37,369 nt of DNA from Azotosporobacter soli (lineage in GTDB: Bacteria; Bacillota; Negativicutes; SG130), in the NCBI RefSeq assembly GCF_030542965.1, contig NZ_JAUAOA010000028.1:1-37369 (forward strand). The letters are read 5' to 3'. The notes beneath the pieces were generated by a model. The model saw only the letters and a program-made list of their open reading frames with translations, ran no database searches and had not been told where the DNA came from. Numbering within the stretch: position 1 is the first letter of the stretch; each line of letters begins with the position of its first letter. Both the position numbers and the translations under genes were made by a program. Positions 2,140 through 37,328 of the stretch are shown in pieces.

Positions 2140-2181
2140 AAAAAGACCATACTTACATGAATGAATCATATAAGCAAGGTC
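2140..2181 (-). terminator. Riboswitch-linked intrinsic terminator
   Basis: On the minus strand the arm at 2181-2167 (begins GACCTTGC) pairs with 2159-2145 (ends GTATGGTC). The 15-bp stem has one mismatch and two G-U pairs and is followed by five Us (2144-2140). The first arm reuses the conserved 3' strand of the yybP-ykoY aptamer, so aptamer and terminator cannot form together. That arrangement predicts that ligand binding turns the operon on. Confidence 0.8.
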
Positions 2182-2272
2182 TGACCAGCAAAAGTCTTGC
2201 CAGTAAAACCGGATGCGTCACCGCATCGTATTGACGATTTTACTGTAAAGGTTACTCCCCCTGCATACTATG
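2171..2272 (-). promoter_or_regulatory. yybP-ykoY (manganese) riboswitch
   Basis: Read on the minus strand, the leader contains the family's conserved blocks in order: GGGGGAGTAACC (2262-2251), CGTCAATACGATGC (2236-2223), GCATCCGG, then CTGGCAAGAC and AGACCTTGC (ending at 2173). Helices are visible: the closing stem GCAGGG with CCTTGC, an 8-bp outer stem (2201-2208 with 2238-2245) and an inner 6-bp GATGCG/CGCATC hairpin with a 4-base loop. Riboswitches of this family bind Mn2+ and usually control Mn export genes (mntP, terC-type, P-type ATPases). Here the next genes are unrecognised. Assignment is by eye from remembered consensus blocks. Confidence 0.85.
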
Positions 2273-2284
2273 CAATTGCTTTCT

Positions 2285-2313
2285 ATTATACGTGGGGGCC
2301 AGTAAGGTGTCAA
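2285..2313 (-). promoter_or_regulatory. Perfect-consensus sigma70 promoter of the riboswitch operon
   Basis: On the minus strand TTGACA (2313-2308) and TATAAT (2290-2285) are separated by exactly 17 bases. Transcription should start near 2278, about 170 bases before the ATG at 2109, with the riboswitch and terminator in between. A perfect promoter is typical where control is exerted after initiation. Confidence 0.88.
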
Positions 2314-34036: not shown

Positions 34037-34140
34037 CTCTTATCAAGAGAGGTCGAGGGACTGGCCCGATGACACCCGGCAACCGGCAGCAATGCAGTGG
34101 TGCTAAATCCAGCAGAACGATAGGTTCTGGAAGATGAGAG
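34037..34140 (+). promoter_or_regulatory. SAM-I (S-box) riboswitch
   Basis: All hallmarks of the S-box are present: the P1 stem CTCTTATC (34037-34044) with GATGAGAG (34133-34140), the AGAGAGGTCGAGGGACTGGC block, CCCGATGACACCCGGCAACC, GGTGCTAAATCC and CAGAACGATAGGTTCTGGAAGATGAG. It binds S-adenosylmethionine. The 3' P1 strand and GAGGAAGG can pair with the CCTTTCCTC of the following terminator, giving the usual antiterminator. High SAM should switch the gene off. Confidence 0.96.
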
Positions 34141-34503: not shown

Positions 34504-35802
34504 ATGTTTTGTTATCAATGTGAACAAACTGCCGGAGGGACGGGCTGTACAAAAGTCGGTGTTTGCGGCAAGAATGAAGACATTGCCAGCTTGCAGGACA
34601 CGTTGCTTTTCGGGCTCAAAGGGATTGCCGCTTATGCGCATCATGCCCGGGAGCTGGGCGCAAAAGATGATCAGGTTGACGCGTTTGCGCATGATGCATT
34701 GTTTTTTACCCTGACTAATGTGAATTTTAATTTGAACCGACATATTGAAATGGTTTTGAAATGCGGTGCGATGAATCTTCGCGCGATGGAAATGCTGGAT
34801 AAGGCGCATCTGGCTCGATTCGGCAGTCCGGTTCCGGTCAAAGTCTTTACCGGAACAAAGGCAGGGGCGGGAATACTGGTGACCGGTCATGATCTGCTGG
34901 ACTTGGAGGAACTGCTTAAACAGACCGAGGGCAGCGGCATCAATATTTATACGCATGGTGAAATGTTGCCGGCTCATTCCTATCCGGCGCTTAATAAGTA
35001 TCCGCATCTCGTGGGCAATTACGGTACTGCATGGCAGAATCAGCGCAAAGAGTTCGCTGCGTTTAGCGGTCCGATTCTTGTCACGACAAACTGCGTGATG
35101 CCGCCACTGGAGAATTGCTCTTATCAGGAACGTATTTTTACACGCAGCGTGACAGGCGTACAAGCCGATGACGCACGTCATTTGACGGAAAGAGATTTTA
35201 GCGCCGTTATCAGCGCTGCAAAAAGTTTGCCGCCGTTGGCGGAAGTGAGCGGTGACTATATGCTGCCGACCGGACATCATCACAGCGTCATTTTGAGTCT
35301 GGCGGATAAAATTGTTGCAGCGGTCAAAGCCGGTAAGATTCGCCGCTTTTTCCTGGTCGGCGGTTGTGATGGAGCTAAGCCGGGGCGTAACTATTATACG
35401 GAATTGGCGCAGCAAATACCGAAAGACTGTATTATTCTTACGGTTGCCTGCGGGAAGTTCCGTTTTAATCACCTTGAGTTCGGCGATATTGACGGCATTC
35501 CGCGTTTGCTTGACTTAGGGCAGTGCAACAATGCCTATTCAGGCATACAGGTGGCGTTGGCACTGGCTGAAGTTTTCAAATGTGGTGTGAACGAACTGCC
35601 GCTGTCGATGATTTTGTCCTGGTATGAACAAAAAGCAGTGGCGATCTTACTCACGCTCTTGCATCTTGGCGTGAAGGATATTCGGATCGGACCGACGCCG
35701 CCGGCATTCTTGACGGCGAATGTGTTCAAAGTTTTGCAAGACAATTTCAATTTGAAATTAATTACAACGCCGGCAGAAGATTTGAAAGCGATTTTAGGCT
35801 AA
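34504..35802 (+). CDS. hcp: Hybrid cluster protein, short (class III) form
   Basis: The 432-residue protein carries a 4Fe cluster at the N-terminus (C3, C6, C15, C21; MFCYQCEQT...GVCGK) and ligands of the hybrid Fe-S-O cluster in TTNCVMP, GGCDGAKPGR, ACGKFRF and GQCNNAYSG. Hcp reduces nitric oxide and hydroxylamine and responds to nitrosative stress. Class I and II proteins are about 550 residues; this one lacks part of the N-terminal helical region, as the class III type of anaerobes does. No Hcr-type reductase is adjacent. A terminator follows. Confidence 0.93.
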   Translation: MFCYQCEQTAGGTGCTKVGVCGKNEDIASLQDTLLFGLKGIAAYAHHARELGAKDDQVDAFAHDALFFTLTNVNFNLNRHIEMVLKCGAMNLRAMEMLDKAHLARFGSPVPVKVFTGTKAGAGILVTGHDLLDLEELLKQTEGSGINIYTHGEMLPAHSYPALNKYPHLVGNYGTAWQNQRKEFAAFSGPILVTTNCVMPPLENCSYQERIFTRSVTGVQADDARHLTERDFSAVISAAKSLPPLAEVSGDYMLPTGHHHSVILSLADKIVAAVKAGKIRRFFLVGGCDGAKPGRNYYTELAQQIPKDCIILTVACGKFRFNHLEFGDIDGIPRLLDLGQCNNAYSGIQVALALAEVFKCGVNELPLSMILSWYEQKAVAILLTLLHLGVKDIRIGPTPPAFLTANVFKVLQDNFNLKLITTPAEDLKAILG

Positions 35803-36734: not shown

Positions 36735-36757
36735 AACCACGCGCTAGGCGTGTGGTT
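36735..36757 (+). repeat. Left-end hairpin of the IS200-type element
   Basis: AACCACGCGC pairs with GCGTGTGGTT (one G-T pair) around a TAG loop. Such imperfect subterminal hairpins are what the Y1 transposase recognises. Confidence 0.75.
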
Positions 36758-36792
36758 CCGGAAAGCTTATAGCTATAAGTAGAAAAGAAAAG

Positions 36793-36847
36793 CCTCCTTT
36801 GCTAGAATAAATGCAGGTTTGCCGACCGCATAAACTAACAAAGGAGG
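36793..36847 (+). promoter_or_regulatory. Hairpin that can bury the tnpA ribosome binding site
   Basis: CCTCCTTTG (36793-36801) pairs perfectly with CAAAGGAGG (36839-36847); TAG/CTA extends the stem after one mismatch. The second arm holds the GGAGG site of tnpA. IS200 is known to limit its own transposase this way, together with an antisense RNA. Confidence 0.8.
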
Positions 36848-36857
36848 AGTATCCAAA

Positions 36858-37328
36858 ATGGATAACAGCAGTTTAGCACACACAAAATGGAAATGCAAAT
36901 ACCATATAGTTTTCGCACCGAAATACAGAAGACAAATCATATATGGGAAAATAAAAAGTGATATCGGAGTTATACTGAGAAAGCTATGCGAACATAAAGG
37001 TGTTGAAATTATAGAAGCAAGTGCTTGCCCGGATCACGTTCACATGTTGGTAAGCATACCGCCGAAAATAAGCGTGTCAAGTTTTGTGGGGTATCTAAAA
37101 GGAAAGAGTTCATTAATGATATTTGATAGGCATGCGAACTTGAAATATCGATATGGCAATCGACAGTTTTGGTGTAAAGGATACTATGTAGATACAGTAG
37201 GTCGAAATAAAAAAGCAATTGAAGAGTATATCAAAAATCAGTTAAAAGACGATGTGATCGCCGAGCAACTTACTTTGAAAGAGCTAGTTGACCCGTTCAC
37301 GGGTGAGCCAGCAAAAAAGTCGAAATAA
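36858..37328 (+). CDS. tnpA: IS200-family Y1 transposase TnpA
   Basis: The 156-residue protein is a complete HUH single-strand transposase. The metal-binding HVH is at 60-62 (CPDHVHMLV) and the catalytic tyrosine is Tyr124 in EEYIKNQ. The first strand KCKYHIVFAPKYRR and the GYLKGKSS segment are typical. The start is ATG at 36858, ten bases after GGAGG, whose site lies in a hairpin arm. The frame is intact, so the element may be active. Confidence 0.95.
   Translation: MDNSSLAHTKWKCKYHIVFAPKYRRQIIYGKIKSDIGVILRKLCEHKGVEIIEASACPDHVHMLVSIPPKISVSSFVGYLKGKSSLMIFDRHANLKYRYGNRQFWCKGYYVDTVGRNKKAIEEYIKNQLKDDVIAEQLTLKELVDPFTGEPAKKSK

Follow-up and report, generated by a model that had tools for sequence, protein, structure and literature searches.

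A yybP-ykoY (Mn2+) class riboswitch before a conserved two-gene unit of the Negativicutes

The genes that lie behind yybP-ykoY riboswitches (Rfam RF00080) are mostly transporters. The leaders of E. coli alx and mntP have both been reported as Mn-sensing riboswitches (PMC9603457). In the L. lactis riboswitch the residues C40 and A41 contact Mn (PMC9190785), the X. oryzae equivalent of A41 being A48 (PMC6754395), and helix P1.1 competes with a terminator in an ON-switch in which Mn2+ stabilises P1.1 and blocks the terminator (PMC11087558). TerC operons (MeeY/YkoY, Alx) are also found behind Mn riboswitches.

We compared these systems with a leader from the Negativicutes bacterium Azotosporobacter soli, carried on a 37,369-nucleotide stretch of DNA (the window; contig NZ_JAUAOA010000028.1). 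All parts of the system lie on the minus strand. The sigma-70 promoter, TTGACA-17-TATAAT (2285–2313), matches the consensus at 12 of 12 positions, as an earlier note on this DNA had recognised, and leaders of relatives have similar promoters at the same spacing upstream. Downstream of it lie, in order, a yybP-ykoY (Mn2+) aptamer (2172–2267), an intrinsic terminator (2140–2182), gene 1 (1831–2109, 92 aa) and gene 2 (1341–1823, 160 aa). Judged by its sequence, its covariation and the cross-detection of alx and mntP described below, the leader is a riboswitch of the yybP-ykoY class, in agreement with the manganese-type riboswitch proposed in the earlier note, with Mn2+ as the probable ligand. It has in common with the RF00080 riboswitches of E. 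coli (alx, mntP) and L. lactis the L1 block GGGGAGUA, the L3 block CGUCA...CCGG and AGACC, as well as helices P1.1, P1.2, P3.1, P3.2 and P4 and the switching of P1.1 against the terminator. In contrast to them, it is without P2, giving a three-way junction like that of most Negativicutes sequences collected, it scores below the Rfam threshold and it has no transporter under its control.

The leader transcript folds better than its shuffled counterparts (z = −4.9, with 0 of 200 shuffles as good). The terminator, a stem of −20.3 kcal/mol (2182–2145) followed by U5 (2144–2140), uses AGACCUUGC, which takes in the 3′ strand of P1.1; the first arm of the stem, AGACCUUGCUUAUAUGA, includes this aptamer-closing strand, and P1.1 and the terminator are mutually exclusive helices. 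This reuse of the 3′ strand, already noticed in the window from its letters, is present in all 14 leaders examined (that of the window and 13 others). By its anatomy the leader would act as a transcriptional ON-switch, the direction of regulation being read from the L. lactis arrangement. At low Mn2+ the terminator would capture the 3′ strand of P1.1 and transcription would end near 2140; at sufficient Mn2+, docking of L1 and L3 would stabilise P1.1 and prevent the terminator, and the two-gene mRNA would be made. We place the probability that an ON-type Mn2+ riboswitch controls the two-gene unit at about 0.9.

Within the aptamer, P1.1 (2264–2259/2179–2174) is followed by L1 (2259–2253), P1.2 (2252–2250/2186–2184), P3.1 (2245–2236/2210–2201), L3 with the discriminator A near 2232, P3.2 (2227–2222/2217–2212) and P4 (2200–2197/2191–2188). 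The conserved blocks that the earlier note had pointed out are all found and in the correct order (L1, then L3, then AGACC), reading in the window transcript GGGGGAGUAAC, then AUCGUCAAUACGAUG...CAUCCGGUU, then GGUCAGACCUUGC. Across an alignment of 67 sequences, GGGAGUA of L1 and AGAC show little or no variation, and all 67 have the C-A of L3, in which the A after GUC is the discriminator adenosine. We take this C-A to be the C40/A41 of L. lactis, from the L. lactis sequence set against the published residue numbers. The L3 blocks of the window and of E. coli alx are identical but for a single base.

Helices P1.1, P1.2, P3.1, P3.2 and P4 all covary, as tested in alignments of nine leaders and of 67 sequences. 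In the latter, which was fitted to the model and leans towards its pairing, 20 of 25 pairs show changes on both sides, 95.6% of cells pair and 337 compensatory cells were observed against 94 in shuffles, with the signal collapsing in slid controls. The MAFFT alignment of the nine leaders agrees, having seven pairs with changes on both sides, a result reached by none of 500 shuffles. P2 is absent from the window aptamer, which does not form the four-way junction, and from 64 of the 67 sequences, a count that is biased because the sequences were gathered with, and aligned to, a model without P2. Since the E. coli alx leader also has no P2 in the alignment to the model, we treated P2 as optional rather than defining.

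The scan with RF00080 that the earlier note had suggested returned nothing for the leader, either at the gathering score or at E ≤ 10, and such silence had been named beforehand as grounds for refutation. That proved too strong, the Rfam model being insensitive in the class: of 200 Negativicutes genomes a single one reached its cut-off, so that failure at the gathering score says little in this class and the absence of a match weighs only lightly against the RNA. Many of the sub-threshold RF00080 matches in these 200 genomes precede TerC, GDT1/UPF0016, MntP or Na/Ca-exchanger-like genes. Two weak matches in the window's own genome were rejected as they had neither the L3 nor the AGACC block.

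The assumption of insensitivity was tested with dedicated covariance models, which agreed with it. The first, R1, was built from nine aligned leaders of the gene pair with no known Mn riboswitch as input, and it finds the leaders of TerC, GDT1/UPF0016 and HtpX genes and of E. coli alx. Of 30 RF00080-derived loci of the class, R1 recovered 25 at E < 0.001 and 27 at E < 0.2, with position and orientation agreeing. In a scan of 6.5 kb from E. coli MG1655, it ranked the alx leader first (22.7 bits, E 1.1e-4) and the mntP leader second (E 0.07). The enlarged model R2, from 67 aligned sequences, was run on 233 kb, where it reported alx (E 5e-8) and mntP (E 2e-7); its first match away from a Mn-type leader had E 0.72. 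The window leader scores 79.8 bits to R2 and 92.3 bits to R1, whose training set included it. With R1, Mn-type riboswitches were found in 123 of 380 genomes, as against 1 of 200 at the RF00080 cut-off, and annotation pipelines therefore probably miss most Mn riboswitches of the Negativicutes.

Both open reading frames are as the earlier note had described them, a 92-residue soluble protein and a secreted, Gly/Met-rich membrane protein. Neither places a cation-transporter family behind the switch. Gene 1, predicted to be cytosolic, belongs to no known family: it found nothing in Pfam, NCBIfam or PHROGs, nothing significant in a sequence search of the PDB, and chance matches only when its model was compared by fold using Foldseek (best E 2.0). 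The gene 2 product, predicted to be exported and membrane-anchored, opens with a signal-like N-terminal segment and ends in two Gly/Met-rich helices; its linker, predicted with low confidence, bears an invariant Y-K-x-S-x-P...K-A-P motif. The predicted model of this product, of low confidence (pLDDT 62.7, pTM 0.26), shows three helices. Its only likeness in Pfam or NCBIfam, that of a low-complexity Pro/Ser/Gly-rich stretch to DUF2076 (PF09849, E 5.8e-5), was set aside for naming, as it reached 23.7 bits against a cut-off of 38 and looks compositional. No relatives of gene 2 were found in viral contigs.

Of 380 genomes of the class, 143 have gene 1, with homologues in Sporomusa, Pelosinus, Anaerospora, Selenomonas, Pectinatus and other Negativicutes; among 299 genomes sampled from the phylum there was one marginal match beyond the class. 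Gene 2 is next after gene 1 in all the relatives inspected at first and at 78 of the 80 named loci. The two genes are a fixed unit specific to the Negativicutes. Apart from gene 2, the census of 80 Negativicutes loci revealed no neighbour that was both constant and informative; in the Selenomonadaceae the pair is often followed by a sugar-phosphate isomerase-like gene.

The riboswitch lies directly before the pair in 11 genomes, the window's own included, from six families (f1, f10, f13, f15, f18 and f27), and a riboswitch-terC-gene1-gene2 operon is present in two further genomes, G029 and G039, both of f15. The homologues do, then, recur behind this riboswitch, a check that the earlier note had set. 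The aptamers of G029, G039 and G014 (one of the 11) are of a different subtype from those of the other pair leaders, so that the association does not stem from a single inherited copy of the leader. By a rough estimate, taking some 160 riboswitches, one gene in about 2700 and a pair present in 38% of genomes, the number of such cases expected by chance is well below one. At about 130 of 146 matches to the pair there is no detectable riboswitch, notably in the Selenomonadaceae, such as Selenomonas, and the pair is therefore not always Mn-switched.

We then considered which genes these riboswitches precede. The first recognised gene behind 100 of them, picked by score rather than at random, was TerC in 45 cases, GDT1/UPF0016 in 13, the gene pair in 11, HtpX in 11, a membrane protein of about 109 aa in nine, CaCA in two, and a P-type ATPase and MntP in one each, with seven unassigned. 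The protein of about 109 aa occurs mainly in Sporomusa-like genomes and is followed in several loci by a P-type cation ATPase; the one copy scanned had no match in Pfam. Six RF00080/R1 matches have leaders of the form GTAGCTAACGG... and a downstream gene not assigned to the seed families. At one locus (G133, contig C13, 8942–10143, minus strand), two TerC-type genes each follow a Mn-type riboswitch of their own, the two riboswitches lying on one strand and separated by about 1 kb.

The window's own genome has four convincing copies by R2. Besides that of the pair, these precede an HtpX gene (contig C4, 12645–12739, minus strand; Peptidase_M48, E 7e-38), a CaCA-like antiporter named from its sequence by eye (contig C3) and a TerC gene (contig C30; E 4e-42). 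A fifth, weak match inside a coding gene was rejected. An HtpX-type M48 membrane protease stands directly after the riboswitch in this genome and at ten other Negativicutes loci. The pair is the tail of the TerC operon in G029 and G039; in the window it stands alone, and the TerC gene of the same genome has its own riboswitch on another contig, although the riboswitch class is the same.

Because the arrangement of switch plus pair recurs in related bacteria, the two proteins very probably belong to the manganese response of the cell. In B. subtilis, TerC proteins co-purify with SecDF, SecY, FtsH and HtpX and help to metalate exported enzymes (PMC10550928). Given the switch common to TerC, HtpX and the pair, and the terC-pair operon of a sister lineage, we propose that the pair assists manganese handling or quality control at the membrane. 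At high Mn, it may be a membrane accessory that aids TerC-type export and the metalation of exported proteins; alternatively, it may protect the membrane and the secretion machinery. Some such accessory role, suggested by regulatory and operon linkage alone, is a tentative assignment to which we give rather less than an even chance. The same tentativeness applies to the wider proposal that the pair is a previously unrecognised component of manganese homeostasis, which would act alongside TerC and HtpX at the secretion machinery under high Mn.

A more specific form has the products of the pair assembling with TerC, and perhaps with HtpX and the Sec translocon, to load Mn into exported proteins. 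The two operons that join terC to the pair point this way, as do the riboswitch common to TerC, HtpX and the pair in the window's genome, the TerC-HtpX-Sec association of B. subtilis (PMC10550928) and the predicted export and membrane anchoring of the gene 2 product. However, only two genomes, both of one family, have terC beside the pair and most pairs lie away from it, and we consider direct assembly rather unlikely.

It is improbable that the leader is a yybP-family variant sensing another divalent metal (e.g. Fe2+, Co2+ or Ni2+), with the pair part of the response to that metal. The Mn-contacting C and A are invariant, the L3 core is a base away from that of the Mn-sensing alx leader and the same form of aptamer precedes TerC, HtpX and GDT1 genes, all of which argue for Mn2+, whereas the atypical controlled genes and the missing P2 in most sequences collected would suit such a variant, of which some may exist as Breaker and colleagues expect (PMC7266159).

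Still less probable is the alternative raised by the earlier note, in which the true target is a classical exporter located further downstream and separated by an IS3 element. An IS3-type insertion sequence does occupy the end of the contig (1–1307, minus strand), with orfA/orfB and terminal inverted repeats, and its right end at 1307 falls, as had been stated, 33 bases after gene 2. Where relatives have the riboswitch and the pair but no insertion sequence, the genes after gene 2 are unrelated and often on the opposite strand (by eye arginase-like, pseudouridine-synthase-like, beta-lactamase-like and others); with nothing conserved following the pair, a displaced exporter is unlikely. Moreover, the TerC and CaCA-like genes of the genome have their own riboswitches elsewhere. 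The IS3 element is a neighbour outside the system of riboswitch and pair.

Two other regulatory RNAs were seen in the window, both on the plus strand. Downstream of a SAM-I riboswitch (34037–34140, 93 bits) with a terminator lie a small ORF of about 63 aa and, beyond it, a hybrid-cluster-protein-like ORF (34504–35802), an unusual target for a SAM switch. A match to RF01405 (STnc490; 36735–36844) precedes an IS200-like transposase ORF (36858–37328) and is probably the element's own leader.

Chance resemblance, in which an ordinary attenuator or terminator leader holds no aptamer, has the missing RF00080 match on its side and is hardly credible against the covariation across 67 sequences and the finding of TerC leaders, alx and mntP by models derived from leaders of the pair.

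The RNA itself belongs to a known class; the pair as its target is new to our knowledge, and so is HtpX as the target of a Mn riboswitch. The open-access literature, with subscription papers and supplements mostly outside its scope, contained no report of htpX with a manganese riboswitch and no paper on yybP-ykoY in the Negativicutes that we could find. A Herbaspirillum paper that names htpX together with riboswitches concerns predicted sRNA targets and was set aside as a precedent.

Since the standard Rfam scan misses most of their Mn riboswitches, the manganese regulons of the Negativicutes are under-annotated. For both proteins, a testable physiological context comes from the recurrence of this conserved pair, which encodes no transporter, after the switch in six families, and from its linkage to terC in two genomes. 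The presence of HtpX behind the same switch suggests that the manganese response extends to the quality control of membrane proteins. If the proposed role is true, the Mn riboswitches of the Negativicutes would govern membrane quality control and the metalation of exoenzymes besides export.
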